Shown here piece after piece: positions 21,723 to 37,544 of a DNA stretch of 64,000 nucleotides. The translations under genes were made by a program, and so were the position numbers. Within the stretch, counting starts at the first letter, position 1. Every line of letters starts with the position of its first letter. The DNA comes from Actinoalloteichus hoggarensis. Lineage in GTDB: Bacteria; Actinomycetota; Actinomycetes; Mycobacteriales; Pseudonocardiaceae. The stretch lies in contig NZ_CP022521.1 in the NCBI RefSeq assembly GCF_002234535.1, positions 5,874,001 through 5,938,000 on the forward strand, given 5' to 3'. The notes beneath the pieces were generated by a model. It saw only the letters and a list, made by a program, of their open reading frames with translations. It was not told the DNA's origin and made no database searches.

Positions 21723-22727
21723 TCAGCTCTTGGAGCTGAACGCGGCGTCGAAGGCAGCGTTCGGCTTGTCGAAGAGCAGTCCCCTGATGAAGCCGACCGC
21801 CTCGGCGGCGCCGCGCAGCCGGTCCATGCCCGCGTCCTCCCACTCCACCGAGATCGGGCCCTGATAGCCGATGTGGTTGAGGGCGCGGAAGGACTCCTCC
21901 CAGTTCACGTCGCCGTGGCCGGTGGAGACGAAGTCCCAGCCCCGACGCGCGTGCGCCCAGGCGAGATGCGAGCCGAGCCTGCCGTTGCGACCGTCGAACC
22001 GCTTCTTCGTGTCCTTGCAGTCCACGTGGTAGATGCGGTCGGCGAAGTCGAGGATGAAGCCCACCGGGTCCAGGTCCTGCCACACGAAGTGGGAGGGGTC
22101 CCAGTTCAGCCCGAAGGCGGGTCGCCTGCCGACGGCCTCCAGCGTGCGCTCGGTCGTCCAGTAGTCGTAGGCGATCTCCGAGGGGTGGACCTCATGGGCG
22201 AAGCGCACGCCGACCTCGTCGAAGACGTCGAGGATCGGGTTCCACCGATCGGCGAAGTCCTGGTAGCCGTCGTCGATGACCTCCTGCGACACCGGCGGGA
22301 ACATCGCGACGTACTTCCAGATCTTCGATCCGGTGAAGCCGACCACGGTGTCGACGCCGAGTTTCGCCGCCGCCCGTGCCGTGTCGGCCATCTCGGCGGC
22401 GGCCCGCTGTCGGACGCCCTCCGGCTCGCCGTCGCCCCAGATCCTGGCGGGCAGGATGTTCTGGTGACGGTGGTCGATGGGGTCGTCGCACACCGCCTGG
22501 CCGACCAGGTGATTCGAGATCGTCCAGACCTTCAGGCCGTGCCGGGCGAGGATGTCGAGCCTGCCCTGGACGTAGTCGTCCTCCGCGAGGGCACGGTCCA
22601 CCTCGAAGTGGTCGCCGGAGCAGGCGATCTCCAGGCCGTCGTATCCCCATTCGGACGCGAGTCGACAGACCTCCTCGAACGGGAGGTCGGCCCACTGTCC
22701 GGTGAACAGCGTGATGGGTCGGGTCAT
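21723..22727 (-). CDS. TIM-barrel sugar phosphate isomerase/epimerase-like protein
   Basis: A 334-residue cytosolic protein of the xylose-isomerase-like TIM barrel family. Conserved pieces are [32 protein letters not shown] (Glu metal ligand), [13 protein letters not shown] (Asp/His), [11 protein letters not shown] and the closing [14 protein letters not shown]. Close relatives sit beside Gfo/Idh/MocA oxidoreductases in sugar or cyclitol catabolism; the substrate is unknown. AAGGGAA precedes the ATG. It is the first of two TIM-barrel genes on this strand, 74 bases before the Tat-exported one. Confidence 0.83.
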
Positions 22728-22802
22728 CGCGGATTCCCTTCGGTGTGTCGTCACCAGGTGACGGGTGTGTCGATGTGGCGGTGCGCGACCGCCCTTGCGG
22801 AA

Positions 22803-23265: not shown

Positions 23266-24669
23266 TCAGGGCGTCTGCCCGTCCAGCCCCTGGAGACTCA
23301 GGAGCAGGTCGCGCACGTCCGTCGCGGCCAGCCGCCCGTCGCGTTCCACCCGCTCCGGAACCCGAGGGTCCGAACAGAGCAGGATCGGGCCGTCCTGTGG
23401 GGAGTCCGGCAGCCGGCCGTGTGATCCCCGCACCGGCGACGGGTCGAGCGGCACCACGTTCATCGCGTACCGCAGTCCGACCTTCTTACGCACCAGGTTC
23501 GTCGCCGCCTTCGCCTTGACCATCGGATCGGTCGGGTCGAAGAACAACTCCGCCGGGTCGTAGCCGGGCTTGCGGTGGATGTCGACGCCCTTGGCGAAGT
23601 CGGGCGCGGCGGCGTCGTCGAGCCAGTAGTAGTAGGTGAACCAGGCGCGCGGCTCGGCCACCGCGACGAGTTCGCCCGCCCGTTCGTGGTCGATGCCGTA
23701 GCGCGCCTGCTGTTCCCGATCGAGGACCTCGTCGACGCCGGGCAGGCCCGCGACGATCTCCCGCACTCTCGGCAGGTCGGCCGGGTCGGCGACGTAGACG
23801 TGGGCGACCTGGTGATCGGCCACGGCGAAGGCCCGCGAGGCCCACGGGTCGAGGTATTCCATGCCCGCCTGCCGGTAGACCTCCAGCAGCCCCTCCCGTC
23901 GCAGCGCGCGGTTGACGTCCACCGGCTGGTCGACCGAGGTGATGCCGTACTCGCTCAACGCCACCACGGAGGCCTGCTGCCTGCGGGCCTCGGCCAGCAG
24001 CGGCGCCAGCTCGGCGTCCACGGCGCGGGCGGCGGCCACGGCCTGCGCCGAGTCGGGCCCGAACCGCTGGAGGTCGTAGTCCAGATGCGGCACGTAGACC
24101 ATCAGCAGCTCGGGTCGGTGTCGTTCCAGGACTCGGGTCGCCGCCTGGGCGACCCACCGGCTGGAGGCGATCGACGCGGTGGGACCCCAGTACTGGAAGA
24201 GTGGGAACTCGCCGAGTTCGGTGGTGAGCTCGTCGTGCAGGGTCACCGGGCGCGTGTAGCAGTCCGGCGACTTGCGGCCGTCGGCGTGGTAGACGGGGCG
24301 AGGCGTGACCAGCATGTCCGTGGAGGCGCCCATCGCGTACCACCAGCAGATGTTGGCGGCCCGATAGCCGGGGTGCGCCGCCTTGGCGGTCTCCCACACC
24401 TTCTCGCCCCGCACCAGCCGGTTGTGCTGCCGCCACAGGTAGACCTCGCCGAGGTCGCGGAAGTACCAGCCGTTGCCGACGATGCCGTGCTGGGCAGGCG
24501 TCAAACCGGTGAGGAAGGTCGACTGGACGCTGCAGGTGACCGCGGGCAGCACGGTGCCGAGTTCGGCCTGCCAGCCCGCCTTGCCCAGCGCGGCCAGGTT
24601 GGGCATGTGCGCCAGCAGCCGAGGGGTCATGCCGACCACGTCGAGCAGCACCAGTGGCTTCATCCTCAT
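23266..24669 (-). CDS. EboF-like type I phosphodiesterase/alkaline-phosphatase-fold protein
   Basis: A 467-residue member of the alkaline phosphatase superfamily (nucleotide pyrophosphatase/phosphodiesterase type). Asp10 (LLDVVGMTP) and the nucleophile candidate Thr45 (PAVTCSVQSTFLTG) are present. Other usual metal ligands differ: the D-x-x-G-H-x-x-G-P motif reads DYDLQRFGP (His to Gln201), and SDHG reads SEYG (Asp240 to Glu, His241 to Tyr). It is the last gene of the Ebo-type operon. The ATG at 24669 overlaps the EboE stop (ATGA); a second ATG at 24663 is better spaced from GGAGG. Role in the pathway unknown. Confidence 0.82.
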   Translation of the reverse strand: MRMKPLVLLDVVGMTPRLLAHMPNLAALGKAGWQAELGTVLPAVTCSVQSTFLTGLTPAQHGIVGNGWYFRDLGEVYLWRQHNRLVRGEKVWETAKAAHPGYRAANICWWYAMGASTDMLVTPRPVYHADGRKSPDCYTRPVTLHDELTTELGEFPLFQYWGPTASIASSRWVAQAATRVLERHRPELLMVYVPHLDYDLQRFGPDSAQAVAAARAVDAELAPLLAEARRQQASVVALSEYGITSVDQPVDVNRALRREGLLEVYRQAGMEYLDPWASRAFAVADHQVAHVYVADPADLPRVREIVAGLPGVDEVLDREQQARYGIDHERAGELVAVAEPRAWFTYYYWLDDAAAPDFAKGVDIHRKPGYDPAELFFDPTDPMVKAKAATNLVRKKVGLRYAMNVVPLDPSPVRGSHGRLPDSPQDGPILLCSDPRVPERVERDGRLAATDVRDLLLSLQGLDGQTP

Positions 24670-25829
24670 ACCTCCTCCACGTCGGTGATCAGGTTCTCCG
24701 TCGCCCAGGTGAGCTCGGCGGCGATGCCGTCCACGAGCTCGGCGTCCGAGCGCGGTGTCGTCTCCGTGGTCTGCGTCGTCGCCCGGCCGGTGCCCGCTCG
24801 GGGCAGCACGCTCCAGGTGTAGGTCTCCACCTCCAGGTGCGGCCGGAACTCCTGCCCGTGGCGCAGCGCGGTGACCGCCTCCCGCAGCACCCAGGTGGTG
24901 GAGCGCAGCGGGGCTACGGGCTGCGCGTGCAGCGGGACGTGGAAGTGCACCCGCCACGGTCCGAGGCCGGGCAGTTCGCTCGCGGCCTGCGGCAGGTCGT
25001 CGACGGCGCGGACCTGCTGATCCGGACCGAGTTCGCGCACCTGGTGCAGGTATCTCGGCTCGTCGAAGTGGGCCAGCGCCGCCTTGGTCGCCCGGCTCTG
25101 CGGTCGGTCGACCTGGAGGGCCGCCGAGGCCTGCACCTTGACGACGTCCAGGCCCGCGGCCTTGACGGCGGCGACGGTCTCGGTCGGGTCGGCGAAGGAC
25201 ACGGCGAGGTGGCAGGTGTCCAGGCACAGTCCGATGTAGGCGGGGTCGACGCGGCCGGACAGCCAGTCCACCGCGTCGGCGACGGTGTCGAGGACGCAGC
25301 CGGGCTCCGGCTCCACCGCCAGTCGGATCGGCCTGCCGATCCGACGGTGCAGTTCCCGCAGACCCAGCGTCAGCTCGTCGACGGCACCCAGCGCGAGCAT
25401 CTCGTCGGCGATGCTCCACGGCTGCCGCCAGCCCAGCGGCAGGGTGGAGATGCTGCCGTGGTCCGCCCCGTCGGGCAGCAGGTCGGCGAGCACCGTCGCG
25501 CAGTCCATCGTGTACTTGAGCCGGGACCGCTCGGTCCAGCGGGGCCGGTACACGGCGTGCTTCACCACCTCCTGGTGGAAGCCGCCGTAGGGGAAGGCGT
25601 TGAGGGTGTGCACCTCCAGGCCCCTGGCCCGGAGTTCCGCGGCGAGTCTGGCGCGGGCCTCGGCGTCCTCGGCCAGGCCGGCCGCCACGTCGGCGGCGAG
25701 CCACAGTCCGACGCCGAGCCGGTCGGCGCCCAGTCTGCGCCGCACCGGCTCCGCGTAGTCGTCGAGCTGGGCGAGGATGCCGGCCAGGTCCTCCGCGGGA
25801 TGCACGTTGGTGCAGTAGGAGAGCGTCAT
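24666..25829 (-). CDS. eboE: Metabolite traffic protein EboE
   Basis: A 387-residue TIM-barrel protein of the EboE family. Family features include the start LSYCTNVHPAEDLAGILAQL, LEVHTLNAFPYGGFH, RLAVEPEPGCVLDT (Glu ligand), GLCLDTCHLAVSF and VKVQASAALQVDRPQSR, ending with HLEVETYTWSVLP. In cyanobacteria the ebo genes are needed to move a scytonemin precursor to the periplasm; whether EboE is an enzyme is unsettled. It overlaps eboB upstream (ATGA at 25826-25829) and the EboF-like gene downstream. Confidence 0.88.
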   Translation of the reverse strand: MTLSYCTNVHPAEDLAGILAQLDDYAEPVRRRLGADRLGVGLWLAADVAAGLAEDAEARARLAAELRARGLEVHTLNAFPYGGFHQEVVKHAVYRPRWTERSRLKYTMDCATVLADLLPDGADHGSISTLPLGWRQPWSIADEMLALGAVDELTLGLRELHRRIGRPIRLAVEPEPGCVLDTVADAVDWLSGRVDPAYIGLCLDTCHLAVSFADPTETVAAVKAAGLDVVKVQASAALQVDRPQSRATKAALAHFDEPRYLHQVRELGPDQQVRAVDDLPQAASELPGLGPWRVHFHVPLHAQPVAPLRSTTWVLREAVTALRHGQEFRPHLEVETYTWSVLPRAGTGRATTQTTETTPRSDAELVDGIAAELTWATENLITDVEEV

Positions 25830-26737
25830 CCGGCGCCGCCTGACTCGGCGGCCGTCGCCGGGTCCGGGCGCGCGCCGCGCAGCACGGAGTTGCCTTCGAA
25901 GGTGCCCGTCGCGGTGTTCTCCTCCGTGCCGAATCCGGGCAGCTCCGACAGCTCCAGTCGGCCGCTCTGTCCGTAGAACTCCACCGGGTTGTCCCACAGA
26001 ACGGTCTGGACCTGGCCCGACGAGAAGCCGGCGTCGAGCATCGCCCGGCCGGTCTTGTAGGTCTTGAGCGGATCGGAGCGGCCCCAGTCGGCGGCCGAGT
26101 TCACCAGGATCCGCTCGGTGCCGTACCGCTGGAGCAGCGCGACCATCCGGCGCTCGTCCATCTTGGTGTCGGGGTAGATGGAGAAGCCCATCCAGCAGCC
26201 TGCGTCGGCCACGGCCTCGATGGTGACCTCGTTGAGGTGATCGACGAGGACGCGCCGGGCGGGGATCCCGGACTCGGCCACCACGTCCAGCGTCCGCCTG
26301 GTGCCCTTGGCCTTGTCCCGGTGCGGGGTGTGCACCATGACGGGCAGCTCGTGCTCGCGGGCCAGTTCCAGCTGCCGGGCGAAGACGCGGTCCTCCTCCG
26401 GGGTCATCGAGTCGTAACCGACCTCGCCGACCGCGACCACGCCGTCCTTGGCCAGATACCGGGGCAGGACGTCGAGCACGTCGACGCAGCGCGGATCGTT
26501 GGCCTCCTTCGGGTTGAGCGCGATCGTGCAGTGGTGTCGGATGCCGAACTGCGCTGCGCGGAACCGTTCCCAGCCGATCAGTGCGTCGAAGTAGTCGGTG
26601 AAGGAGGCGACGCTGGTCCTGGGCTGGCCGAGCCAGAACGCCGGTTCCACCAGAGCACGGACTCCCGCGGCGTACATCGCCTCGTAGTCGTCGGTGGTCC
26701 GCGAGGTCATGTGGATGTGCGGGTCGAAGATGCGCAT
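25826..26737 (-). CDS. eboB: TatD-type metal hydrolase EboB
   Basis: A 303-residue TatD-family amidohydrolase. The metal site is visible as DPHIHMTS (HxH), VAVGEVGYD (Glu), MVHTPHRDK (His), VDHLNE (His) and NSAADWG (Asp). This version, with the Ebo-type SFTDYFDALIGWERFR segment, is the cluster-associated branch, not the nuclease TatD. The ATG shares one base with the eboA stop (TGATG), so translation is coupled. Substrate unknown. Confidence 0.87.
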   Translation of the reverse strand: MRIFDPHIHMTSRTTDDYEAMYAAGVRALVEPAFWLGQPRTSVASFTDYFDALIGWERFRAAQFGIRHHCTIALNPKEANDPRCVDVLDVLPRYLAKDGVVAVGEVGYDSMTPEEDRVFARQLELAREHELPVMVHTPHRDKAKGTRRTLDVVAESGIPARRVLVDHLNEVTIEAVADAGCWMGFSIYPDTKMDERRMVALLQRYGTERILVNSAADWGRSDPLKTYKTGRAMLDAGFSSGQVQTVLWDNPVEFYGQSGRLELSELPGFGTEENTATGTFEGNSVLRGARPDPATAAESGGAG

Positions 26738-27507
26738 CAGTGCTGCCTCCCCTGGTCCTGCGTCGGCCTGCTCGACGGATCGGTGTGCGTGCCGCCGGAG
26801 TCGTGAGCGGGGCCCGGCGGAGATCCGTCCGGCCCGGAGGTGGCGGCCTCGGCGGCGCCCGTGCCGTTCCTCGCGACCCGGCCGAGCAGCTCCAGCGCGT
26901 CGGCGGGCACCTCGCGACCCGCCGCGCGACGCTCGGCGGCGAAGTCCTCGACCATCCGCAGCAGCTCGGGATCGGCCCGCTCCGCCAGCCTGGCGACCGC
27001 GGCCAGGGGCACGCCGGTGAACACACACTTCAGCACGCCGTGTCGCCAGCTGTGCGCGTCGAGACGACTCCCGGCGAAGGGTCCCATCGCGGCGGCGACC
27101 AGCCGGACGTCGTTGGCCCGCAGGGCGTCCCGGACCAGGATCAGCGCGGCGTCGACGAGCCGGTCGAGCCCCTCGCCGGGTTCCTGCGCCGCCGTGACGA
27201 CGTCCAGGCCACGCAGGACGCCACGGCGTTCGGCGTCGTCGCCGTAGCGGTAGAGATCGGCGATCTCGGTCGCGACCTGCGTCGGGGAGCAGACCGAGGC
27301 CAGGACGCCGAGCAGCATCACGCGGGTCAGGTCGTCGCGGGTGCCGTGCACCATCCCCTGCGGGTCGGTGTCCGGCTGGAGCACCTCCCGACCGACCTCG
27401 CGCCCCACGGCGGGGAACAGCGTTCGGATCGCCGCCGGGTCGGCGGTGATCCGCCGGGCGGCCTCGGCCTCCCACGGCGACTGCGAAGGGTTCTGCCGCT
27501 CGGTCAC
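26737..27507 (-). CDS. eboA: EboA-domain protein
   Basis: A 256-residue, mostly helical protein of the EboA family, which has no assigned biochemistry. The domain spans about residues 10-215 (AIRTLFPAVGREVGREVL, LTRVMLLGVLASVCSPTQVA, WRHGVLKCVFTGVPLAAVA). The last 40 residues are Gly/Pro/Ser/Thr-rich and probably disordered. The GTG at 27507 overlaps the stop of the upstream isomerase (GTGA), with GGGAGG seven bases upstream. Its presence identifies the operon as Ebo-type. Confidence 0.83.
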   Translation of the reverse strand: MTERQNPSQSPWEAEAARRITADPAAIRTLFPAVGREVGREVLQPDTDPQGMVHGTRDDLTRVMLLGVLASVCSPTQVATEIADLYRYGDDAERRGVLRGLDVVTAAQEPGEGLDRLVDAALILVRDALRANDVRLVAAAMGPFAGSRLDAHSWRHGVLKCVFTGVPLAAVARLAERADPELLRMVEDFAAERRAAGREVPADALELLGRVARNGTGAAEAATSGPDGSPPGPAHDSGGTHTDPSSRPTQDQGRQH

Positions 27508-28583
27508 CTGCTGCCTCCCGAACTCCGACGGTGCGTGGTCTGGTGGGACGCCGAGTCCGCCGGGGCGGTGGCGCTCGACCGGGCCGAGGCGACGACGCTC
27601 GGCCCGGTCGAGAGTGGAGGGACCGCGGCGGGCCGCGCGGAAGACACCCCGGCGGGCCGTGCGGAAGACACCCCGGCGGGCGGTGCCGAGCCGCCTCGTC
27701 GGCCGTCGGGCAGCGCCGCCCGCAGCGCGGCCAGGGAACGTCGGGCGACGGCGGGCGCGGCATGACTGTGTCTCGGCAGCTCGACGGCCGCCAGGCCGCG
27801 GTAGCCGACCTCGTGCAGGGCGGCCAGCGTCGCGGCCAGGTCGAGTCGGCCCTCGCCGAACTCCAGATGCTCGTGCACGCCCGGCATCATGTCGTCGAGC
27901 TGCACGTTCACCAGCAGATCGCCCGCGCGTCGGACGCACTCGGCGGCGTCGACCGGTTCCACGGCCACGCAGTGTCCGACGTCGAGCGTGAGGCGCAGCG
28001 AGTCGGGCTCGCCGAGATCCGCCCGCAACGCGAGGGCCTGATCGAGACGCTCGATCACGTGGCCGGGCTCCGGCTCCAGACCCAGCGGCACGCCGAGCCG
28101 GTCGGCCTCGGCCAGCACCGGTTCGAGCCCGGCCCGAAGCCGTCGCCAGGTCACCTCGGCACCGCTGTCGTCCTCGTCGACGCCCGACCAGCAGGAGACG
28201 CAGTCTGCGCCGAGATCGGCGGCCACGCGCAGCGCCCTGGTGAGGAAGTCGATCCTCGGGGCCTGGTCGTCGCAGACCAGCGTCGGATGGTGTTTGCGCG
28301 TCGGATCGAGCAGGTAACGCGCGCCGGTCTCCACGACCACCCGCAGTCCCAGCTCGGCCAGCCGCGCCGCCACCCGATCGGTCTGTTCTCGCACGTCGGC
28401 CGCGAAGGGGTCGAGATGGGCGTGGTCGAGGGTCAGGGCTACCCCGGTGTAGCCCAGGTCCGCGATCACGGCCAGCGCGTCGAACAGCCGATGGTTGGCG
28501 AAGCCGTTGGTGCCGTAGCCGAGGTCGAAGCCGGTCCCGGGCCGCCCCGAGTCGGGGGCGGCCGAGGACGTCGATTCGGTCAT
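27504..28583 (-). CDS. TIM-barrel sugar isomerase/epimerase of the Ebo-type operon
   Basis: A 359-residue protein. Residues 20-290 form a xylose-isomerase-like TIM barrel: GYGTNGFANHRLFDAL, TLDHAHLDPFAADV, GLEPEPGHVIERLDQ (Glu), LTLDVGHCVAVEP (Asp/His) and VNVQLDDMMPGVHEHLEFGEG. The last 70 residues are a low-complexity Ala/Ser/Pro/Arg tail partly made of an eight-residue repeat (PAGVSSAR) encoded by a 24-bp tandem repeat. It lies between the UbiA gene (82-base gap) and eboA (GTGA overlap). Its place in the operon suggests it processes the cyclitol or sugar intermediate; this is inference. Confidence 0.82.
   Translation of the reverse strand: MTESTSSAAPDSGRPGTGFDLGYGTNGFANHRLFDALAVIADLGYTGVALTLDHAHLDPFAADVREQTDRVAARLAELGLRVVVETGARYLLDPTRKHHPTLVCDDQAPRIDFLTRALRVAADLGADCVSCWSGVDEDDSGAEVTWRRLRAGLEPVLAEADRLGVPLGLEPEPGHVIERLDQALALRADLGEPDSLRLTLDVGHCVAVEPVDAAECVRRAGDLLVNVQLDDMMPGVHEHLEFGEGRLDLAATLAALHEVGYRGLAAVELPRHSHAAPAVARRSLAALRAALPDGRRGGSAPPAGVSSARPAGVSSARPAAVPPLSTGPSVVASARSSATAPADSASHQTTHRRSSGGSR
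27627..27680. repeat. 24-bp tandem repeat inside the isomerase gene
   Basis: Two 24-bp copies (27627-27650 and 27651-27674) differing at one base, followed by a partial third (GGCGGG at 27675). They encode the PAGVSSAR repeats in the protein's C-terminal tail. Copy number is a multiple of three, so changes keep the frame. Confidence 0.85.
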
Positions 28584-28665
28584 TCCGGCAGTCCTCCCCC
28601 GGTGGTCGAGCCGAGAGACGCGGCGGCGCCGCCGATCGGTCGCGGACCGGTGCGCACGGCCGCCG

Positions 28666-29538
28666 TCATGTGGGGCTCACCTTGCGGGCCAGCGCCCGCG
28701 CGGCGGGCAGCACTCCGACGATCAACGCGGCGGCCTTGGCCGCGCCGCGCCGCGCCGCGATGCCCGCCTGGAGCGGCACCATCCCGTGGATGCCCGCGAC
28801 GGTGGCGGCACGCACCCGTTCCGCCGACGGCGTCCGCGCGGCGGCGAGCTGGGCCCGACCGACGAGGCGTCCGTAGCCGACGCCCGCGGCGGCGCCGAGG
28901 AGCCGGTGCAGCGGCGATCGGGCCGGGCCGAGGACCGTGGCCGAGGCGGCGACACCGGTGGCGGCCAGGGCCGCCTTCGCGGTGGTCGCCGAGCCGCCGT
29001 GGACCTCGCCCGCGGACAACGCGGTGATCCCCGCGGCGTGACAGGCCATGGCGCCCGCCGCGGGCAGCGCGCCGCGGACGTTGCGGGGGTCGGCGCCGAG
29101 CAGGACGTCGAGTCCCCGGCACAGGGCCATGCCCAGCGGCGCGGCGGCGGTGGGCTTGAGCACGGTGTCGTAGGCCCAGATCGCCCCGGAGAGGGCGACC
29201 GCGACCCGCGCGCTGTCCCGGCCGCCCGCCAAGGCGGACAGGCCGATTCCCGCGCCTGCCAGCCCCGCCGCGACGGCGAGCGCGCCCTCGGGGGAGATGC
29301 GGCCGGACGGGATCGGACGTTCCGGCCGTTCCTCGGCGTCCAGTTCGCGATCCGCCCAGTCGTTGAGCGCCATCCCCGACCAGTACAGGGCGACCGACGC
29401 CAGCGGCAGCAGCAGTCGTCGACCACGCAGCGGCGTCCCGGATGCCGCCGCGCCCGCGAGGGTGTCGCCGAGGACGGACAGGCCGGCGGGAGCCCGGACC
29501 AGCTCGACGAGGGTCCTGGCCCGGTCCGCGGCGGTCAT
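28666..29538 (-). CDS. eboC: UbiA-family prenyltransferase EboC
   Basis: A 290-residue membrane protein of the UbiA superfamily, which transfers a prenyl group to a small acceptor. The first Asp-rich motif NDWADRELDAEERP (residues about 59-72) and the second motif YDTVLK followed by RGLDVLLGAD are present, with multiple hydrophobic helices. A UbiA gene beside a MIPS-like gene is also known near calcium-dependent antibiotic genes of Streptomyces coelicolor (SCO3242/SCO3243, from memory). The ATG overlaps the stop of the MIPS-like gene (ATGA). Prenyl donor and acceptor are unknown. Confidence 0.87.
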   Translation of the reverse strand: MTAADRARTLVELVRAPAGLSVLGDTLAGAAASGTPLRGRRLLLPLASVALYWSGMALNDWADRELDAEERPERPIPSGRISPEGALAVAAGLAGAGIGLSALAGGRDSARVAVALSGAIWAYDTVLKPTAAAPLGMALCRGLDVLLGADPRNVRGALPAAGAMACHAAGITALSAGEVHGGSATTAKAALAATGVAASATVLGPARSPLHRLLGAAAGVGYGRLVGRAQLAAARTPSAERVRAATVAGIHGMVPLQAGIAARRGAAKAAALIVGVLPAARALARKVSPT

Positions 29539-30890
29539 TCCGGCGCTCCGGCCTCGGCGCGCCCGGCGTCGGGACCTGCCGAGTCTGGGCCTGCCGAGCC
29601 TGAATCTGTCGAGCCTGAATCTGCCGAGTCTGGATCTGTCGAGTCGGGTTCTCCGGCGGCGGGCACCGAAGCGGCGGGCACGGCGGCGGAATCGGCGGGA
29701 TCGCCGGTGACGGCCAGACTCGCCCCGAGCCCGTCGATCCAGTGCGCCAGTTCCCAGGCCTGTTCGGCGAACCGGTGCTCGTCGCTGCCGAGCGGGTCCT
29801 TGAAGAAGAAGGCCAGCGCGCCGAGCGGTCCGGTCCGGCCTGCCGCGTGGGCGGCCGAGGTCAGGCGCGCCAGGTCGAGCACCAGCGGCGCGGCGAGCGA
29901 GGAGTCGTAGCCGGTCCAGGTGAACTGAAGCGTCATCCTGGCGCCGAGGAAGCCTTCGAAGGAGACGTGGTCCCAGGCCGTCTTGACGTCGCCCATGTCC
30001 GGCACGTTGTCGATGTGCAGCGGCGCGGTGACCTCCGAGCCGAGAAGCGCCTCGAGTCCGCGCGCCTTGGACTCCAGTTTGCTGGCGGCGAACTCGGGAT
30101 CGCCGAGAGTGGCGCCGTCGCCGCCGCCCAACAGGTTGGTGCCCGCCCAGGACCGGACCTTCAGTGCTCTGGCGGTGAACATCGGGGCGAGGACGGTGCG
30201 CAGCAGCGTCTCGCCGGTCTTGCCGTCGCGTCCGGCGTACGGCAGTCCCTGGAGATCGGCCAGTTCACGCAGCGCGGGCAGCGTGACCCCGGTGGAGGGA
30301 GTGAAGTCGACATAGGGGCAGCCCGCGCGCAGCGCGGCGTACGCGGCCAGCGAACTGGGCGGCAGGACCGTCCGCGTCGGGTCGGCCAGCGCCGTCTCCA
30401 AGGAGGCGAGGTCCTGATGATCCGCGACGAGCGGCACCGGCGGCTCGGTCGAGGCCAGGTTGACGACGACCACCCGGCGTAGGCCGTGCCGCTTCCGGAA
30501 GGACGTCAGATCACCGATGAGCGTCTCGGCCGCCTCGGCCTGCGAACCGGTGTGCAGCGTGGGGTGGTAGCCGCAGCGGATGTCGGAGTCGACGGCACGC
30601 AGCCCCTCTGCGATGCCGCGCAGCACCACGGCCGGGACGAGGCCTGCGGCGCTGAGTTGTTCGGCGCGCTTGTCCAGCGCGGTGTCGACGATGTCGTGAC
30701 CGCCGATCACCAGTTCGTCCCAGGCCGGCAGCGGGGCGGTGTCGAAGGGGGCTCGTTCCGTGACGCAGCCGATCGGCTCGATCAGGCCCGCGCGCAGGGC
30801 GAGCAGGCCGCTGATCACCGTCGTGGCCACCGATCCTCGGGCACCGACCAGCCAGAGACCCGTCGGACCCACACCATGGGGACTGTTCAT
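29535..30890 (-). CDS. Inositol-3-phosphate synthase-like protein
   Basis: A 451-residue homologue of myo-inositol-1-phosphate synthase (NAD-dependent cyclisation of glucose-6-phosphate). It has the NAD loop LWLVGARGSVATTVISG, the GGGDGATLGDPEF motif and LESKARGLEALLG. It differs from typical enzymes where the catalytic region normally reads YVPYVGDSKRA and HNTCEDSLLAAP: here NVPDMGDVKTA and FTWTGYDSSLAAP. It may therefore cyclise another substrate. The C-terminus is a Pro/Asp/Ser repeat tail. It is the first gene of the Ebo-type operon. The ATG at 30890 has only a weak AAAGGCGG site. Confidence 0.82.
   Translation of the reverse strand: MNSPHGVGPTGLWLVGARGSVATTVISGLLALRAGLIEPIGCVTERAPFDTAPLPAWDELVIGGHDIVDTALDKRAEQLSAAGLVPAVVLRGIAEGLRAVDSDIRCGYHPTLHTGSQAEAAETLIGDLTSFRKRHGLRRVVVVNLASTEPPVPLVADHQDLASLETALADPTRTVLPPSSLAAYAALRAGCPYVDFTPSTGVTLPALRELADLQGLPYAGRDGKTGETLLRTVLAPMFTARALKVRSWAGTNLLGGGDGATLGDPEFAASKLESKARGLEALLGSEVTAPLHIDNVPDMGDVKTAWDHVSFEGFLGARMTLQFTWTGYDSSLAAPLVLDLARLTSAAHAAGRTGPLGALAFFFKDPLGSDEHRFAEQAWELAHWIDGLGASLAVTGDPADSAAVPAASVPAAGEPDSTDPDSADSGSTDSGSAGPDSAGPDAGRAEAGAPE
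29576..29650. repeat. 15-bp tandem repeat in the MIPS-like gene
   Basis: Five degenerate 15-bp units (consensus ctgycgagyctgrat) encode five-residue PDSTD/PDSAD/SGSTD units in the protein's acidic C-terminal tail. Copy changes would keep the frame. Confidence 0.85.
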
Positions 30891-31053: not shown

Positions 31054-34000
31054 TCACTCGGCGTTGACCGACTTCGCCAGCACCGCGACACCCTCGATCG
31101 AGGCGATCACGGCTTCGGCGTCACGGACCAGCACGGTGCGGACCTCGGCGTCGCTGACCAGCGCCGTGTCCTCGGCCAGTGCGGCGAAGGACCGCAGGCC
31201 CTCGATGGCGCCCCAGTCGTCCCCGGTCGCCTCGGCCAGCCGGGCAGCGACGAGCTGCTCGGTCAGGTCCCGATGCGCGGTGAGGGACAGCCGGTTGGTG
31301 GCGCGGAACCGGTCGACGAGCTGACCGATGTCACGCAGCGAGGTGGTGGTGGCGAACGTGACCGACTGCTCGGCCGTGTTGCCCGCCCGGTCGACGGCGT
31401 GCACGGCGATCTCGTGAGTGCCGAACGGCAGCTGGTACAGCGGGACGAGCCTGCCGGAGCGGATCTCCTCGCCGTTCAGCGTGCCGATGACCGAGTCCAC
31501 CCCGGAGGTCGAGTCGTGGACCTCCCAGGACACGAACAGGTCGGTGGCGTCGCCGTAGACCCGGCCGTCGGCCACCCCGGCCAGCAGCAGCGTCGGAGCG
31601 GTCGCGTCCAGCAGCACGGTGGCCGCCTTCTCCGCCTCGACGTTGCCCGCCGTGTCGACGGCCCGGTAGAGCAGCGTGTGCTCACCGTCGCCGCTGATCT
31701 CCACGGCCGAGTCGTACTCCGTCCAGTCGCCGCCGTTCAGGCTCCACTCGATCCTGGCGACACCGGAGGCCTCATCGGACGCGGACAGCTCGACGGCGAC
31801 GTCGCCCGCATGCCAGCCGTTGTCGTTCGGCGCGGCCAAGGCCGCCTCGGTCAGCGGCTCGGTCGCGTCGATCCGCAGCTCGACGGACTGCGTGTCCTCC
31901 ACGTTGCCCGCGACGTCGGTGGAGCGGTACTCCACCGTGTGGGTGCCGTCCCCGGCCACCGCGAACGGCTCCGAGTACTCGGTCCACTCGCCGTCGTCGA
32001 TCCGGTACTCCGTGCTCGCCACGCCGCTGCCCTCGTCGTCGGCCGACAGGCTGACCGACAGGGGCGTGGAGGTGAACCAGCCCTCGGCACCGTCGGCCTC
32101 GGCCGGGTCGGTGCTCAGGGTGGTGACGGGGGCGGTCTCGTCCACGATGTCGGCGACCTGGATGTCGCGGAAGTAGACGTCGTCGCCGTCGCCGTGGTTC
32201 TGGATGCCGACGAAACCGCTGGTGAGATCGCGATTGGCGTCCGTGCTGAGGAAGTCGTTGATCAGCACGTCGTTGAGGTAGACCTTGATGGTCTGGCCCT
32301 CGACCACGATCTCGTAGGAGTTCCACTCGCCGGGCGGGTTGAGCGCGGCGTCGCGGGCCTCGAGGTCGGCGCCCTGGAACGTGTAGATCGCCCCGGTGGT
32401 GCGGTCGTCGACGTCCGTGGCGTCGATCTGGATCTCGTAACCCTCGTTGACGGCCACCCACGGGTCGTCACCGGGGTCGGGGAATCCGACGAAGACACCC
32501 GAGTTGTCGTCGCCCGCCATCTTCCAGTCGGCCTTGAAGCTGTAGGAGCCCAGCTCCTCGCCGTGCCACAGCAGACCCATGCCACCGGTGGAGAGGATGG
32601 AGCAGTCGTCCTGAAGGACGAACTCACCCGGTCCGGCCTGGTTCCAGCCGTCGAGGGAGGCCTGCGTGCCGTCGAAGAGGCTGCGGTAGCCCTCCTCGGG
32701 GGTGGTCGGCTCGCAGCCCGGCTCGCCGGGCTCGGTGCCGCCCGGCTCGGTCACGCCGGGGCCGTCGAAGCGGATGACGTCCAGGTCGAACAGGGCGCCC
32801 TCGCCGCCGACGAACACGAAGAACAGCTCCTGCGAGCCGCCGGGATCGGTGACCGGCGTCGGCTCGATCTCGACGTGCTCGTTCCAGCCGCCGGTGTTGG
32901 CGACCTCGACGGTCTGGAGCAGCTCGCCGTCCGGCGCGCCGGAACGGACCTCGATGGACCCGCCCGCCCCGTCGGAGGACACCCGGTAGCCGATGCCGTC
33001 GACACCGTGCAGGTTCACCGGGTCGAGGGAGATCCAGTCACCGTTCTCGATGTTGCCGACCTGACGGCCGCCCGAGGAGCCCGCGTGGGTGTCGATGATG
33101 CTGACGCCCTCGCTGTTGTGGAAGAACTCCGCCTCCTTCGACTTCGTGTGGAGGATGTTCTGGTCGGAGGCCCCCAACGCGGGGGCACCCTCCGCGCCAC
33201 CGTCCACGTAACTGGCGTCGATGACGCCGAAGATGTTGGCGTCGGCACCGTGTCCGTCGTCGGCGGCGGTGGTGATGGTGCCCTCACAGCCGGTCTCCCG
33301 GCTGATCGGGTGGCCGTGGTTGTCGTGGCCGAGGATGTACTCGACGACGACGCGCGAGCAGTCGATCCCGCCGGCCGCGCTGTCCTCCGGGTCGGTCACC
33401 GTCACCTTGAAGGGAACCTGGCCGCCGAAGGCGAAGACACCGCCGTCGACCGGGTACTCCAGCTCTACGATCGGCGCCGTGTTGCCCGCCGTGATGGTCA
33501 CCGTCGCAGCGCCGGTCAAGCCGTCGGTGTCGGTCACCGCCAGTCGGGCCTGGAACTGTCCGGTCTCCGTATAGGTGTGGCTCACCGGACCCGCCTCGGT
33601 GGAGTCCACCGTGCCGTCGCCGTCGAAGTCCCACTCATAGGTGAGTTCCTGACCGTCCGGGTCGACGGTGCCGGTCGGGTCGAACTCCACGGTGAGCGGA
33701 GTCGGACCGCTGGTGACGTCGGCCGACAGCTGGACGCTCGGTGTCCGGCCGCCCTGGGTGTAGTCGATCCGATAGACCGCCGAGTCCGGGGCCCCGCCGA
33801 AGTAGCCGCTGCCGTAGTCCAGCACGTACAGCGATCCGTCCGGGCCGAACTCGATGTTCATCGGCCTGGTCAGTTCCATCGAGTCGAAGAACGGGGCGAT
33901 CGCGCCGGGCTCTCCGTTCTCACCGACGTCGATGGTCTTGATCCAGCCCCGGTCCCACTCGTAGGCGAAGTTCTTGCCGTCGTAGTACTCCGGGAATTTC

Positions 34001-36180
34001 GTGTCGACGTCCAGCTCGGGGTCGAACCGGTAGACCGGGCCGCCCATCGGGGACTCGCCCCCGTTGCCGAACTCCGGAACCGAGCCGCCGTCGTAGGGGA
34101 TCCACGCAGGCTGTGCGGGCGGCAGATCGACAAGTCCGGTGTTGTTCGGGCTGGTGTTCTGTGGCGCCGCGCAGTCGAAGGCCTCGCCGGAGGTGCCGGA
34201 GGCGAAGTCGTAGTCGATGAACGGCTCGTTGTCGCCGACACAGTAGGGCCAGCCGAGGTTGCTCGGCCCGGTGATCAGATTGAATTCGACTATGCCCGCC
34301 GGGCCTCGGTTCGGGTCGGCCGAGCCTGCATCCGGGCCGTAGTCGCCGAGGTAGATCCAGTCGGTGACCGGGTCCACGGCGAAGCGGAACGGGTTGCGCA
34401 GGCCCATCGCGTAGATCTCTGGACGGGTCTGCTCGGTGCCCTCCGGGAAGAGGTTGCCCTCCGGGATGGTGTACGAGCCGTCCTCCTGCACCGTGATCCG
34501 CAGGACCTTGCCCCGCAGGTCGTTGGTGTTGGCGGAGCTGCGCTGCGCGTCGAACGCCGGGTTGCGGTCGGCCCGCTCGTCGATCGGCGTGTAGTTGGAA
34601 GACTCGAACGGGTTGGTGTCGTCGCCGGTGGACAGCAGCAGGTTGCCCTGGCTGTCGAAGTCGATCTCACCACCCGCGTGGCAGCAGATGCCTCGGTCCG
34701 CCGCGACCTGGAGAATCTCCTGCTCGCTCTCGATGTCCAGCGTGCCGTCATCGAGAAGTTTGAACCTAGATAGTTGATTATGGCCCTCGAACGCTGCGAA
34801 GTCCTCAGCAGTACCCGTCGTCGGTGCGTCACCGGCCGGAGTGTCCAGAACCGGTGCGTAGTACAGGTACACCCACTGGTTCTCTTCGAAGTCGGGGTCG
34901 ATCGCGACGCCCTGGAGACCGTCCTCGTCGTGGTTGTAGACGGGGAGCCGACCTGCCAACGTGGTGGTGGCCTCCGGAGTCGTCAGGAAGATCTCGCCGT
35001 GCCGAGAGGTGTGCAGCACCCGCCGGTCGGGCAGCACCGCGAGCCCCATCGGCTCGCCGGTGACGCCGTCACCCTTGGCCAGGGTGATCTGGTCGAAGTC
35101 CTCGTCGACCGGGGCCTCGGGGTCGGGCTCGTGCCCGCCGTGGTCGCCGCCGCAGTTCGCGTCCACCGCGCCCGCCGCGCTCTGGATGCCGCCCGCGAGG
35201 TGCTGAAGGAACTCCGGCTCCGAGAACGACTCGATGGTGTGGCCGCCGCCGGTGTACCAGGACCGGCCGCCGTCGAACTCGTGGCACCAGGCGATCGGGT
35301 GATCGCCCATCGCGCCGGATCCGGGGTCGTAGGACGACTCGTCCAACGAGGCGAGGACGTGGACGTCCTCACGAGGATTCTCCTGGTAGTTGTACCACTC
35401 GTCGGTGCGCACCCACTCGTCCGGCAGATGCGCGCTGGACGGGTGGTCATGGTCCTCGACGGTGACCGTGGCCTCTTGGATGTGCGGGTGGGAGTCGAAG
35501 TAGGCGCCCACCAGGTCGCCGTACCAGGGCCAGCCGTACTCGGTGTCCGAGGCCGCGTGGACGCCCGCGTAGCCGCCGCCGCCCTGGATGTAGCGTTCGA
35601 AGGCGCCCTGCTGCTCGTCGTTCAGCACGTCGCCGGTGGTGGACAGCCAGACGACGACCTCGTACTGGGCGAGGTTGTCATCGGTGAACGCGCCTGCGTC
35701 CTCCGTCGCGGTGACGGTGAAGCCGTTCTCCTCGCCGAGCTGCTCGATCGCGGCGATGCCCGCCGGGATCGAGTCGTGACGGAAGCCCGCGGTCTTGGAG
35801 AAGACCAGGGCGTCGAACTCCTCGTCCGATCCGTGATCCGGCGGGTCCCCGAGCCCGGGCGGCGTTCCGCCGTGGCCTGGGGGTGTGCCGCCGTGGCCCG
35901 GAGGCGTGCCGCCATGGCCGGGGCCGTGTCCCTCATGCGCGAACTCGGGCGCATGCGTGATCGGGTCGAGTCGGCTCTGTCGGTCGGAGGCGTCGGGTCG
36001 TGCGCCCAGTCCCGAGGTCGGAAGGGCGGACGCGGTGCCGCTCACTCCCAACGCGGTCAGCAGGGAGAGTGTGACGATTCCCGCCCGCCGCGCCAGCCTG
36101 CCACGCCGCCCGGTGTGCGTGCGTGGTCTCTGGCTTAACACATGTCTTTCGGAGTTGCTTTCCAGTCTGCTTCGTTGCAC
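31054..36180 (-). CDS. Secreted ThuA / PQQ-type sugar dehydrogenase / DUF1080 multidomain protein
   Basis: A protein of about 1,708 residues. In order: Sec signal (about 30-55), GHGGTPP repeats (about 85-112), ThuA domain (120-335), soluble glucose/sorbosone-dehydrogenase six-blade propeller (355-795), PKD domain (805-890), CBM6-type carbohydrate-binding region (980-1145), DUF1080 domain (1160-1355), Ig-like OmpL47-type repeats (1360-1615) and a C-terminal FIMAH domain. DUF1080 members include 3-keto-disaccharide hydrolases and 3-keto-2-hydroxyglucal hydratases; ThuA is linked to disaccharide use. So it probably acts on glycosides outside the cell. The start is uncertain: the GTG at 36180 has AAGGAG ten bases upstream; GTGs at 36204 and 36141 are alternatives. 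Confidence 0.85.
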   Translation of the reverse strand: MQRSRLESNSERHVLSQRPRTHTGRRGRLARRAGIVTLSLLTALGVSGTASALPTSGLGARPDASDRQSRLDPITHAPEFAHEGHGPGHGGTPPGHGGTPPGHGGTPPGLGDPPDHGSDEEFDALVFSKTAGFRHDSIPAGIAAIEQLGEENGFTVTATEDAGAFTDDNLAQYEVVVWLSTTGDVLNDEQQGAFERYIQGGGGYAGVHAASDTEYGWPWYGDLVGAYFDSHPHIQEATVTVEDHDHPSSAHLPDEWVRTDEWYNYQENPREDVHVLASLDESSYDPGSGAMGDHPIAWCHEFDGGRSWYTGGGHTIESFSEPEFLQHLAGGIQSAAGAVDANCGGDHGGHEPDPEAPVDEDFDQITLAKGDGVTGEPMGLAVLPDRRVLHTSRHGEIFLTTPEATTTLAGRLPVYNHDEDGLQGVAIDPDFEENQWVYLYYAPVLDTPAGDAPTTGTAEDFAAFEGHNQLSRFKLLDDGTLDIESEQEILQVAADRGICCHAGGEIDFDSQGNLLLSTGDDTNPFESSNYTPIDERADRNPAFDAQRSSANTNDLRGKVLRITVQEDGSYTIPEGNLFPEGTEQTRPEIYAMGLRNPFRFAVDPVTDWIYLGDYGPDAGSADPNRGPAGIVEFNLITGPSNLGWPYCVGDNEPFIDYDFASGTSGEAFDCAAPQNTSPNNTGLVDLPPAQPAWIPYDGGSVPEFGNGGESPMGGPVYRFDPELDVDTKFPEYYDGKNFAYEWDRGWIKTIDVGENGEPGAIAPFFDSMELTRPMNIEFGPDGSLYVLDYGSGYFGGAPDSAVYRIDYTQGGRTPSVQLSADVTSGPTPLTVEFDPTGTVDPDGQELTYEWDFDGDGTVDSTEAGPVSHTYTETGQFQARLAVTDTDGLTGAATVTITAGNTAPIVELEYPVDGGVFAFGGQVPFKVTVTDPEDSAAGGIDCSRVVVEYILGHDNHGHPISRETGCEGTITTAADDGHGADANIFGVIDASYVDGGAEGAPALGASDQNILHTKSKEAEFFHNSEGVSIIDTHAGSSGGRQVGNIENGDWISLDPVNLHGVDGIGYRVSSDGAGGSIEVRSGAPDGELLQTVEVANTGGWNEHVEIEPTPVTDPGGSQELFFVFVGGEGALFDLDVIRFDGPGVTEPGGTEPGEPGCEPTTPEEGYRSLFDGTQASLDGWNQAGPGEFVLQDDCSILSTGGMGLLWHGEELGSYSFKADWKMAGDDNSGVFVGFPDPGDDPWVAVNEGYEIQIDATDVDDRTTGAIYTFQGADLEARDAALNPPGEWNSYEIVVEGQTIKVYLNDVLINDFLSTDANRDLTSGFVGIQNHGDGDDVYFRDIQVADIVDETAPVTTLSTDPAEADGAEGWFTSTPLSVSLSADDEGSGVASTEYRIDDGEWTEYSEPFAVAGDGTHTVEYRSTDVAGNVEDTQSVELRIDATEPLTEAALAAPNDNGWHAGDVAVELSASDEASGVARIEWSLNGGDWTEYDSAVEISGDGEHTLLYRAVDTAGNVEAEKAATVLLDATAPTLLLAGVADGRVYGDATDLFVSWEVHDSTSGVDSVIGTLNGEEIRSGRLVPLYQLPFGTHEIAVHAVDRAGNTAEQSVTFATTTSLRDIGQLVDRFRATNRLSLTAHRDLTEQLVAARLAEATGDDWGAIEGLRSFAALAEDTALVSDAEVRTVLVRDAEAVIASIEGVAVLAKSVNAE

Positions 36181-36299
36181 TGGTACTTTTCTCCTTGTTG
36201 TCACCGGATCTCGTCGGTTCTCCGACCGTCAGGTCGCGGCCGACGAGTTGGGGCTGTCGCTAGCGGCTGGTGCCTCCTTCTGAATGACGACCGTGAAAC

Positions 36300-36362: not shown

Positions 36363-37544
36363 TTATCCTCGGGCGCCGAACAGGTGTTCCAAGGCCAATT
36401 GGTCGAGCCGCTCGTAATGCAGTCCGCGCTGCCCGGCCTCGACCGGGTCGAACTCCTCATCACGAAGGTCGGACAGAGTCTCACCAGGCGCGAGGGTGGG
36501 GACGGCGAGCGAGCCGAGCCGCGAGGCGCTCATCGCCTCGGCCACCTCGGGGTCCGCCCGGAACGCCCTGGCCCGCTCCGCCAGGATCAGGTAATTGCGC
36601 ATACAGCCTGCCGCCGAGACCCAGACTCCCTCGTCGTCCTCGGTGCGCGGCGGCTTGAAGTCGAAATGCCTCGGCCCGGTGTATCCGCCGTGTTCGAGCA
36701 GATCCACGAGGAAGAACGCGCTTTTCACGTCGCCATTGCCGAAGCGCAGATCCTGGTCGTACCTCGGGCCGTTCTGTCCGTTGAGGTCGATGTGGAAGAG
36801 CTTGTCCTGCCACAGGGCCTGTGCGACGCCGTGGACCATCGACATCCCGGCCATCTGCTCGTGCCCGACCTCGGGATTCACCCCCACCATCTCGGGGTGC
36901 TCGAGGGTGCCGATGAACGCGATGGCGTGGCCGATGGTCGGCAGCAGCAGGTCACCGCGCGGCTCGTTCGGCTTGGGCTCCAAGGCCAGCCGCATCGAGT
37001 AGCCGCGCTCCCTGATGTAGGCGCACACCAGGTCGAGGGATTCCTTGTAGCGGTCCAGGGCCACGCGGATGTCCTTGGCGGCGGCCGATTCGGCGCCCTC
37101 CCGACCGCCCCAGACGACGTAGGTGCTCGCGCCCAGTTCGGCGGCCAGGTCGATGTTGCGCAGCATCTTGCGCAGCGCGTAGCGGCGGATGTCGCGGTCG
37201 TTCGCGGTCAGCGCGCCGTCCTTGAACACCGGCTGGCCGAACAGGTTCGTCGTCGCCATCGGGACGACCAGCCCGGTGGCGGACAACGCGCCCTTGAACG
37301 CGGCGATGATCTTGTCCCGCTCGTTCTCGCTGGAGCCGAAGGGAATCAGATCGTCGTCGTGGAAGGTGATGCCCCACGCGCCCAGCTCGGCCAGCTTCTC
37401 GACGGCGCGCACCGGGTCCAGCGGCGGTCGGACGGCCACGCCGAACGGGTCGACGCCCTGCCAGCCGATGGTCCACAGGCCGAAGCTGAACTTGTGCTCC
37501 GGGCGCGGCTGATAGGGGTCGGTCACAGCTGCTGACGTCGTCAT
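36363..37544 (-). CDS. xylA: Xylose isomerase
   Basis: A 393-residue class I (actinomycete-type) xylose isomerase, interconverting D-xylose and D-xylulose (and glucose/fructose weakly). It is nearly collinear with Streptomyces enzymes: [30 protein letters not shown] with the ring-opening His62, [10 protein letters not shown] (metal Glu), [24 protein letters not shown] (metal Asp/His) and [11 protein letters not shown]. Two metal ions are expected. The ATG overlaps the stop of the oxidoreductase gene (ATGA). It is the last gene of the ROK/ABC operon; the matching xylulokinase is probably the gene cut off at the right edge of the window. Confidence 0.97.

Follow-up and report, generated by a model that had tools for sequence, protein, structure and literature searches.

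The window, a stretch of 64,000 nucleotides from Actinoalloteichus hoggarensis, carries on its minus strand (30890-23266) a compact run of seven genes encoding, in order, a MIPS homologue, a UbiA prenyltransferase, a TIM barrel, EboA, EboB, EboE, and EboF. The MIPS homologue (29535..30890, 451 aa), a putative stand-in for the cyclase EboD, matches PF07994 (168 bits) and PF01658 (104 bits) above their cut-offs, and the prenyltransferase (28666..29538, 290 aa; PF01040) is a putative EboC-type enzyme whose best NCBIfam model is that of the SCO3242 family, NF045897 (349 bits, cut-off 260); with the EboC model NF035940 it stays, at 146 bits, below the threshold of 250. There follow the isomerase/epimerase/dehydratase-like TIM barrel "G3" (27504..28583, 359 aa; PF01261, AP_endonuc_2, 130 bits), which is the extra TIM barrel of MIPS-type clusters; EboA (26737..27507, 256 aa, GTG start; NF035938, 151 bits, cut-off 50); EboB, a TatD-type metal hydrolase (25826..26737, 303 aa; PF01026, 57 bits); EboE, a further TIM barrel (24666..25829, 387 aa; NF035939, 437 bits, cut-off 250); and EboF (23266..24669, 467 aa), which resembles type I phosphodiesterases/nucleotide pyrophosphatases (PF01663, Phosphodiest, 224 bits, cut-off 23). 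EboA and EboE passed their NCBIfam cut-offs, and for EboB and EboF the assignment relied on Pfam family, on position, and on likeness to their counterparts in annotated ebo clusters; these four, characteristic of ebo clusters, are encoded together. An earlier note on this DNA had claimed seven same-strand genes overlapping at every junction except one, and all seven are indeed present with families assigned by profile score, five of the six junctions being overlaps (4, 4, 1, 4, and 4 bases from MIPS to EboF) and the sole gap, of 82 bases, separating the prenyltransferase from G3.

By family profiles EboD is absent from the operon, and the same note's claim that EboD is missing holds genome-wide by score: the best match to the EboD profile, at 157 bits, is the AroB gene, and a second DHQS-family protein reaches 128 bits with NF004852 (cut-off 333), a model that gives 571 bits for an EboD encoded in an ebo cluster. 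The EboD profile used on this genome gives 358-543 bits for planctomycete EboD matches, and no EboD-like score was found in 198 actinobacterial genomes (best 192 bits). An EboD hidden elsewhere in the genome is thus ruled out by these profile scores.

Among the 198 actinobacterial genomes searched, EboE, EboB, the operon-type prenyltransferase, and the operon-type MIPS mark exactly the same 10 genomes, which answers the check proposed earlier on whether the families co-occur beyond this strain; MIPS scores are at least 336 bits for the ebo type and at most 229 bits for all others. With the cluster found in these 10 genomes and in several other phyla, we reject the idea of a strain-specific oddity. 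Of the ten other actinobacterial EboE loci (L016-L025), nine share the full set of seven genes in identical order, with MIPS, TIM, EboB, EboE, and EboF proteins 42-73% identical to those of the window, so the gene order is not due to chance; in the remaining one, L016, a MIPS gene was not seen, and its genome carries a second, complete copy (L017). G3 and EboA form a single open frame in locus L024. Because the whole-genome searches scored only the best first-look candidates (8-12 in most large genomes), weak extra copies may be missed in these counts, in the EboD search, and in the planctomycete counts below.

The operon's MIPS homologue fails the mycothiol-type Ino1 model TIGR03450 (20 bits, cut-off 638), which the other MIPS-family gene of the genome, a mycothiol-type Ino1, passes at 686 bits; housekeeping inositol synthesis is thus covered without the operon gene. 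Further, lower-scoring MIPS proteins (40-41% identity) occur in three of the 10 ebo-carrying actinobacterial genomes (G051, G075, and G097). The nearest solved relative is Ino1 of A. fulgidus (AfMIPS, PDB 1u1i). The homologue keeps K275, D222, and D258, the equivalents of K278, D225, and D261 of AfMIPS, all of which are conserved and which we take to be active-site residues. In addition, its K271, K303, K364, N252, and D329 align with K274, K306, K367, N255, and D332 of AfMIPS, the catalytic residues named in the cited section of PMC5614600, and in our alignment these five are unchanged in every one of 17 cluster and 20 planctomycete copies. Other positions vary: S253 of archaeal-type MIPS is replaced by Gly in 36 of 37 Ebo/planctomycete copies, whereas all 20 canonical actinobacterial ones have Ser, Gln stands in place of Y325 in 35 of the 37, and the position of AfMIPS D310 is Asn in four of the 17 cluster copies. 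A MIPS tree was built without L142-L147, which are repeated or partial loci. It unites the 11 actinobacterial ebo copies in one group with full support, and a branch with full support also sets the 20 canonical actinobacterial copies apart. The Gemmatirosa ebo copy groups with canonical copies and the other ebo copies are intermixed with lone planctomycete copies; the tree, which cannot be rooted safely given the extreme length of the branch to the Ino1 outgroup, does not support a single clade of ebo-type MIPS.

MIPS-type clusters are also present in haloarchaea, Gemmatirosa, planctomycetes, and a deltaproteobacterial MAG. The 107 loci that we compared divide into 20 with MIPS, 29 with EboD, 58 with neither, and none with both. 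In an EboB tree limited to loci with a called cyclase and to EboB sequences of at least 200 residues, and leaving out L174, L175, and L177 as near-duplicates among the Streptomyces plasmids, the cyclase type changes five times on well-supported (starred) branches and five to six times in bootstrap trees, and one phylum has operons of both types (L180 and L181 versus L184 and L185). These comparisons suggest that the cyclase has been swapped several times among bacteria and archaea, an event of which we found no description in open-access papers. EboB is 39-75% identical to matches in 51 plasmid records, and the 20 records that we opened (12 from outside Streptomyces, for taxonomic spread, and eight from Streptomyces) include both MIPS-type and EboD-type clusters. 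The His/Asp/Glu positions of EboB are invariant across 13 aligned EboBs, the NDxxDxxxD motif of the EboC-type prenyltransferase is found in 22 of 22 compared homologues from both cyclase types, and E170, D201, H204, H237, and E268 of G3 are conserved in a 16-row family alignment, in which one locus was entered twice.

In Planctomycetota, EboB was found in 159 of 199 genomes, of which 102 have MIPS only, 39 EboD only, two both, and 16 neither, and among the 40 EboB-negative genomes six have MIPS and two have EboD (Fisher p ~1e-21, uncorrected for kinship; similar at MIPS thresholds of 200-380 bits). The EboD count leaves out two 209-bit EboD-profile matches in MIPS genomes (G253 and G274), and one genome (G311) combines an EboD operon with an unlinked 323-bit MIPS. 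The MIPS gene adjoins EboB in G215, G217, G285, and G303; however, 17 of 20 neighbourhoods examined (chosen from 110, mainly on longer contigs) have no convincing ebo gene nearby, so for these MIPS copies the case for a place in the pathway is one of co-occurrence, a signal that shared ancestry of the genomes can inflate.

An additional TIM barrel is present in all 20 MIPS cluster loci and in none of the 29 EboD loci, although the comparison is not blind, as MIPS loci supplied most of the sequences behind the G3 and T12 profiles. A TIM gene from a different family does occur in at least one EboD locus (L031), and with independent pairs the association of MIPS with TIM has a median p of 0.0625. 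The genome-level TIM search in planctomycetes covered the T12 family, which turned up in 33 of the 110 genomes with MIPS, three of the 43 with EboD, and eight others. With T12 in just 33 of the 110, we reject an obligate two-gene module of MIPS and TIM everywhere and retain the pairing for clusters only.

Taken together, these comparisons make it somewhat more likely than not that the operon encodes an ebo pathway whose EboD has given way to a cyclase of the MIPS fold, with the additional TIM barrel assisting it in clusters; that the MIPS homologue is the pathway cyclase, as previously proposed, is supported by comparison. The analysis establishes gene content, co-occurrence, a near-exclusive distribution with EboD, repeated changes of cyclase type on the tree, and conserved catalytic residues, and we infer the substrates, order of steps, product, and function as follows. 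Using NAD+, the MIPS homologue would oxidise, cyclise, and re-reduce a sugar phosphate to a cyclitol phosphate, the ring of which G3 may isomerise, epimerise, or dehydrate; EboF would then remove or cleave the phosphate, EboC, at the membrane, would attach a prenyl group to the ring, EboB and EboE could alter the compound further by hydrolysis or isomerisation, and EboA may serve as a scaffold. The pathway would thus end in a prenylated cyclitol bound to the membrane, with the same job as the EboD-type product; in cyanobacteria that job may be to deliver a metabolite to the periplasm. An isoprenoid-cyclitol product has already been put forward for EboD-type clusters in the cited part of PMC5133447; that idea is not new. 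Beyond what the earlier note could see are the apparent recurrence of the exchange across phyla and domains and the additional TIM barrel that comes with it in clusters. Since the cyclase would have been exchanged several times with the rest kept, the ring that EboC uses should be reachable by both cyclase types, and accessibility through a phosphate-eliminating EboD-type and a phosphate-keeping MIPS-type enzyme would be a strong constraint on the product.

Alternatively, one could envision MIPS-type and EboD-type operons that share enzymes and yield different products with an altered ring, for example a C6 inositol-type versus a C7 valiolone-type, which we regard as possible, if unlikely. The ring chemistries do differ, as MIPS keeps the phosphate and SPC enzymes eliminate it. 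Moreover, in the MIPS clusters seen outside Actinobacteria and Gemmatirosa (L033, L040, L041, L094, L118, L180, and L181) EboE was not found in the segment compared and other TIM barrels are present, so that more than one step differs. However, repeated changes of cyclase on a conserved EboB backbone, together with the conserved residues of EboB, EboC, and EboF, are easier to reconcile with equivalent intermediates. That Ebo-MIPS and EboD are convergent enzymes delivering the very same carbocycle is, on the other hand, a doubtful proposition that we draw by analogy with Ari2. Under such circumstances, MIPS would act on sedoheptulose 7-phosphate, joining C7 to the C2 ketone, to give the C7 hydroxymethyl-branched six-ring proposed for EboD but still phosphorylated, which G3 and EboF would trim to the common intermediate prior to prenylation by EboC; if so, one conserved prenylated C7-cyclitol lipid would be shared by bacteria and haloarchaea through two unrelated ring-forming chemistries.

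Instead of a transport lipid, the pathway might also yield a redox lipid resembling a prenylated quinone and derived from a sugar, with TIM barrels dehydrating the ring to an aromatic that EboC would prenylate. UbiA enzymes usually use aromatic acceptors, and redox genes recur as neighbours: GSDH-type domains lie near ebo genes in the window and in L017, L019, L020, L021, L023, L025, and L041, and four of the eight opened Streptomyces plasmids carry multicopper oxidase and cyd genes. We nevertheless judge such a product very improbable, because Ubi-297 did not accept phenols or catechols in the cited assays (PMC9235831; no cyclitol acceptor is mentioned in those sections, and the word inositol does not occur in the text) and the Nostoc phenotype was interpreted by its authors as a transport defect (cited part of PMC6282210). 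An ordinary housekeeping inositol-phosphate synthase, serving phosphatidylinositol, mycothiol, or osmolytes and placed in the operon by chance, would fit the conserved catalytic residues, the kinship to archaeal-type MIPS, and the location away from ebo genes in most planctomycete neighbourhoods examined, but is barely credible given the separate mycothiol-type Ino1, the restriction of this MIPS type to ebo-carrying genomes among the 198 actinobacteria, its near-exclusivity with EboD in planctomycetes, and its presence in ebo clusters of several phyla and archaea. If a MIPS-fold enzyme does replace EboD, the label "inositol-3-phosphate synthase" may mislead for a widespread group of proteins, and MIPS and G3, two probably soluble and assayable enzymes in culturable actinomycetes, could serve as an entry to ebo chemistry.

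Ebo genes occur in many bacterial phyla, in some algal plastids, and partly in haloarchaea, and their pathway is chemically unsolved. The cited sections of two reports place the ebo cluster in cyanobacteria, Bacteroidota, Proteobacteria, and eustigmatophyte plastids (PMC5133447, PMC6282210). The window operon is likewise compact and has EboA, EboB, a putative EboC of the UbiA type, EboE, and EboF, but it lacks EboD, carries instead the MIPS homologue together with the extra TIM barrel, and differs in gene order from the EboD-type loci compared. Its prenyltransferase resembles Ubi-297 in belonging to the UbiA family and in its Asp-rich motif, and an ebo context has been reported for flavobacteria and Saccharomonospora; according to the cited sections, the Ubi-297-type enzymes assayed were Maribacter, Zobellia, and Algoriphagus proteins, and enzymes of the EboC type transfer farnesyl groups to quinoline acceptors in vitro (PMC9235831). 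With Ino1 of A. fulgidus the operon MIPS shares its family and the named catalytic residues, but, unlike that enzyme, it is encoded within an ebo operon. PDB 6k96, "Five-membered-cyclitol-phosphate synthase", which we take to be an enzyme of the Ari2 kind, has weak sequence similarity to the operon MIPS (45 bits), and we know of no prenyltransferase context for Ari2. Ari2 itself is described in the cited passage as a MIPS orthologue that converts fructose 6-phosphate to a five-membered cyclitol phosphate (PMC11188666), and the operon enzyme would resemble it as a MIPS homologue in specialised metabolism acting on another sugar phosphate.

Consistent with the earlier note, seven genes occupy 30890-23266 of the minus strand, and the claim of overlaps at all but one junction holds, with a 4-base overlap followed by an 82-base gap and then overlaps of 4, 1, 4 and 4 bases. 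In gene order, Pfam and NCBIfam models identify a MIPS (myo-inositol-1-phosphate synthase homologue), a UbiA prenyltransferase (EboC; the top-scoring model is that of the SCO3242 family), a TIM barrel resembling xylose isomerase (G3), EboA, a TatD-type EboB, EboE and the type I phosphodiesterase EboF; none of the seven proteins matches a DHQS model, the superfamily of the usual ebo cyclase EboD, in either collection. On balance we lean towards regarding this operon as an ebo pathway in which EboD is replaced by a MIPS-fold cyclase, with an extra TIM barrel aiding in the clusters. The operon sits downstream of a 1716-aa multidomain protein (31054-36204, minus strand; ThuA, GSDH, PKD, CBM6, 3-keto-disaccharide hydrolase, Ig-like and FIMAH domains), MIPS being the adjoining operon end. 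Next to MIPS in three other neighbourhoods (L017, L019 and L020) lie homologues that share 57-69% identity with the ThuA, GSDH and 3-keto-disaccharide-hydrolase parts of this protein, and GSDH-type stretches occur close to the operon in L021, L023, L025 and L041. The surroundings also include, downstream, an IolE-like TIM barrel (21723-22754, minus strand), with 62% identity to a protein adjoining the Gemmatirosa ebo cluster (L035) and 56-59% to proteins of planctomycete EboB loci L049 and L081, and, at 36363-43986 (minus strand), a sugar-uptake and oxidation set of xylose isomerase, Gfo/Idh/MocA dehydrogenase, ribose-type binding protein, permease and ROK regulator.

The co-occurrence of the families, which the earlier note proposed to survey, extends beyond the window strain: in 198 genomes spread over the phylum Actinobacteria, EboE (over cut-off, 11 places), EboB (11 places), the SCO3242 prenyltransferase (over cut-off, 11 places) and an ebo-type MIPS of at least 336 bits (next best 229; 10 places) were found in the identical 10 genomes. 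Ten of the 11 neighbourhoods have the seven genes in identical order; the eleventh (L016) is without a visible MIPS, and its genome, G128, holds a second, complete copy (L017). By eye, an FAD-dependent-oxidoreductase-like frame (12915-14348) lies upstream of the L016 prenyltransferase gene in MIPS's stead. Lower-scoring MIPS relatives were present in 44 other genomes of the 198. Because three of the 10 ebo genomes (G051, G075 and G097) carry a second, lower-scoring MIPS and the window genome a separate mycothiol-type Ino1 (686 bits; cut-off 638), the ebo-type MIPS is not the cell's sole inositol synthase.

Alternatively, an eboD elsewhere in the genome could act with this set. Two genes of the DHQS family occur in the window genome, AroB at 2606516 and a second one at 1194658, and a profile built from seven EboDs of annotated clusters found no eboD by score, its best match, at 157 bits, being AroB. 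The second gene scored 128 bits against NF004852 (Azospirillum EboD 571 bits, cut-off 333). No EboD-level score was obtained in the 198 actinobacterial genomes (best, 192 bits); the same profile gave 358-543 bits in 43 planctomycete genomes. Given these low EboD-profile and NF004852 scores, there is by score no EboD in the window genome or the actinobacterial sample. The second DHQS-superfamily protein (G000:C1:1194658-1194990, minus strand; L004) reaches the cut-off of none of its listed NCBIfam models.

Replacement of EboD by MIPS is further suggested by Planctomycetota, inside which operons of both types occur. Among 199 genomes (MIPS threshold E <= 1e-60; EboD above 350 bits, leaving out 209-bit EboD-profile matches in two MIPS carriers, G253 and G274), ebo-type MIPS was found in 110, EboB in 159 and EboD in 43. 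The 159 with EboB comprised 102 with MIPS only, 39 with EboD only, 2 with both and 16 with neither; the 40 without EboB comprised 6 with MIPS, 2 with EboD and 32 with neither (Fisher p ~1e-21, kinship ignored). As for the two with both, G311 combines an EboD operon with a MIPS of 323 bits that is not linked to it, and the MIPS match of G358 (212 bits) is partial and split across two frames. The 16 with EboB and neither cyclase possibly reflect a third cyclase or incomplete assemblies; two of them (G222 and G335) show a lone EboA-EboB pair in 18 kb (L186, L187). MIPS-type map orders include EboF-G3-UbiA-T12-EboB-MIPS (L180, with one stop in the MIPS frame; T12 is the sister TIM family of G3) and EboF-UbiA-T12-EboB-MIPS (L181), and EboD-type orders EboB-UbiA-EboF-EboD-EboE (L184) and EboF-EboA-EboB-EboD-EboE (L185, EboF on the opposite strand). 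MIPS abuts EboB in G215, G217, G285 and G303; of 20 MIPS neighbourhoods hand-picked among those 110, chiefly because their contigs were longer, 17 lacked a convincing ebo gene close by and three had UbiA only.

Elsewhere, 51 plasmid records were matched by EboB. Of 20 examined, 12 were MIPS-type (eight Streptomyces, the haloarchaea Halocatena, Halobaculum and Natronococcus, and Gemmatirosa) and seven EboD-type (Azospirillum, Mycetohabitans, Salipiger, Gloeothece, Ketogulonicigenium, Aureibacter and Deinococcus), the Gloeothece stretch holding EboB and EboD only; a Haladaptatus plasmid had neither cyclase in the stretch and no MIPS across its whole length. An EboB-profile scan of species genomes gave, for the best 80 of 215 loci (mostly Planctomycetota and Verrucomicrobiota), 24 with an EboD match, 2 with MIPS (one from a planctomycete, one from a deltaproteobacterial MAG), 54 without either and none with both. 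At 107 loci (the window and L016-L121), profile HMMs at a 240-bit threshold called 29 EboD, 20 MIPS, 58 neither and none both. No EboE was seen in the stretches of MIPS clusters outside Actinobacteria and Gemmatirosa. A conserved pair, a large hypothetical and a ferritin-like protein (34-40% identity), adjoins EboD-type clusters in a betaproteobacterium (L028, 1017-4099), a cyanobacterium (L030, 11981-15262) and a bacteroidete (L032, 5073-8133).

A maximum-likelihood EboB tree (56 sequences, 25 from MIPS loci and 31 from EboD loci) has five cyclase-type changes on well-supported branches, and bootstrap trees have 5-6; the root is not known, and we therefore claim no directions. The actinobacterial MIPS group falls within a supported group whose remaining nine members are EboD-type, Gemmatirosa among EboD-type Deinococcus, Abditibacterium and relatives, and the G311 EboD operon among planctomycete MIPS operons.

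A G3- or T12-family TIM barrel was present at 20/20 MIPS loci versus 0/29 EboD loci, a comparison that is not blind, since MIPS loci supplied most of the material for both profiles; among the EboD loci, L031 carries a TIM gene belonging to a different family. The lack of blinding in this comparison, together with the grouping of the Gemmatirosa MIPS with canonical copies, makes us hold our explanation slightly less firmly. Averaged over independent comparisons, TIM accompanied MIPS in 4.7 of 5 pairs, and no pair pointed the other way (median p 0.0625, where 0.05 is out of reach with five pairs). Since T12 occurs in only 33/110 MIPS-carrying planctomycete genomes (versus 3/43 EboD-carrying), the additional TIM characterises MIPS clusters and may not be obligate. 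G3 and T12 are closer to one another than to EboE, and G3 retains the Glu-Asp-His-Glu pattern of metal-dependent sugar isomerases and epimerases. L024 has a G3-EboA fusion, in agreement with the TIM-EboA fusions in Actinobacteria mentioned in a passage of PMC5133447.

The AfMIPS (A. fulgidus Ino1) residues K274, N255, K306, D332 and K367, together with the further active-site residues K278, D225 and D261, are invariant in 17/17 cluster MIPS copies, and also in 20/20 planctomycete and 20/20 canonical actinobacterial copies. The first five are named in part of PMC5614600. The D310 position is Asn in 4/17 cluster copies. Four positions distinguish Ebo/planctomycete MIPS from canonical actinobacterial copies, and two of these also differ from A. 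fulgidus, S253 being Gly in 36/37 and Y325 Gln in 35/37. From the invariant residues and the S253 and Y325 changes, the Ebo-type MIPS is probably active with MIPS chemistry, in a possibly altered pocket. NDxxDxxxD is kept in 22/22 EboC homologues from both cyclase types. We propose that MIPS closes the ring, G3 adjusts it, EboF removes the phosphate and EboC adds the prenyl group, which would leave a prenylated cyclitol in the membrane. That this family can take ketose phosphates is shown by Ari2, a MIPS orthologue whose substrate is fructose 6-phosphate (PMC11188666); we speculate, by analogy, that MIPS chemistry on sedoheptulose 7-phosphate would yield the same carbon skeleton as the one that EboD is proposed to make.

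We found no description of MIPS in ebo clusters in open-access full texts, and "inositol" is absent from the main text, figures and supplements aside, of PMC5133447, PMC9235831 and PMC6282210; a portion of PMC3610822 places SCO3242 and SCO3243 ("Myo-inositol phosphate synthase") among S. coelicolor CDA-cluster genes. For EboD-type clusters, an isoprenoid-cyclitol product was proposed in PMC5133447, and in PMC6282210 a lipid that would carry the scytonemin monomer. The gene-level observation of the earlier note stands and its interpretation is partly supported and extended: the prenylated-cyclitol idea had been put forward before, and the novelty lies in the cyclase having been exchanged repeatedly.

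On four of the eight Streptomyces plasmids, a ScyD/ScyE family gene lies directly upstream of MIPS (L026, 3880-5079; L037, 5096-6298; L174, 3817-5016; L175, 4079-5278) and a multicopper oxidase downstream, with cyd genes also near the operon; no ScyD/ScyE family gene or multicopper oxidase is listed in the examined stretches of the other four (L038, L039, L176 and L177). These neighbours are consistent with an extracytoplasmic role, and ScyD/ScyE with a multicopper oxidase beside a MIPS-type operon parallels the scytonemin region of cyanobacteria.
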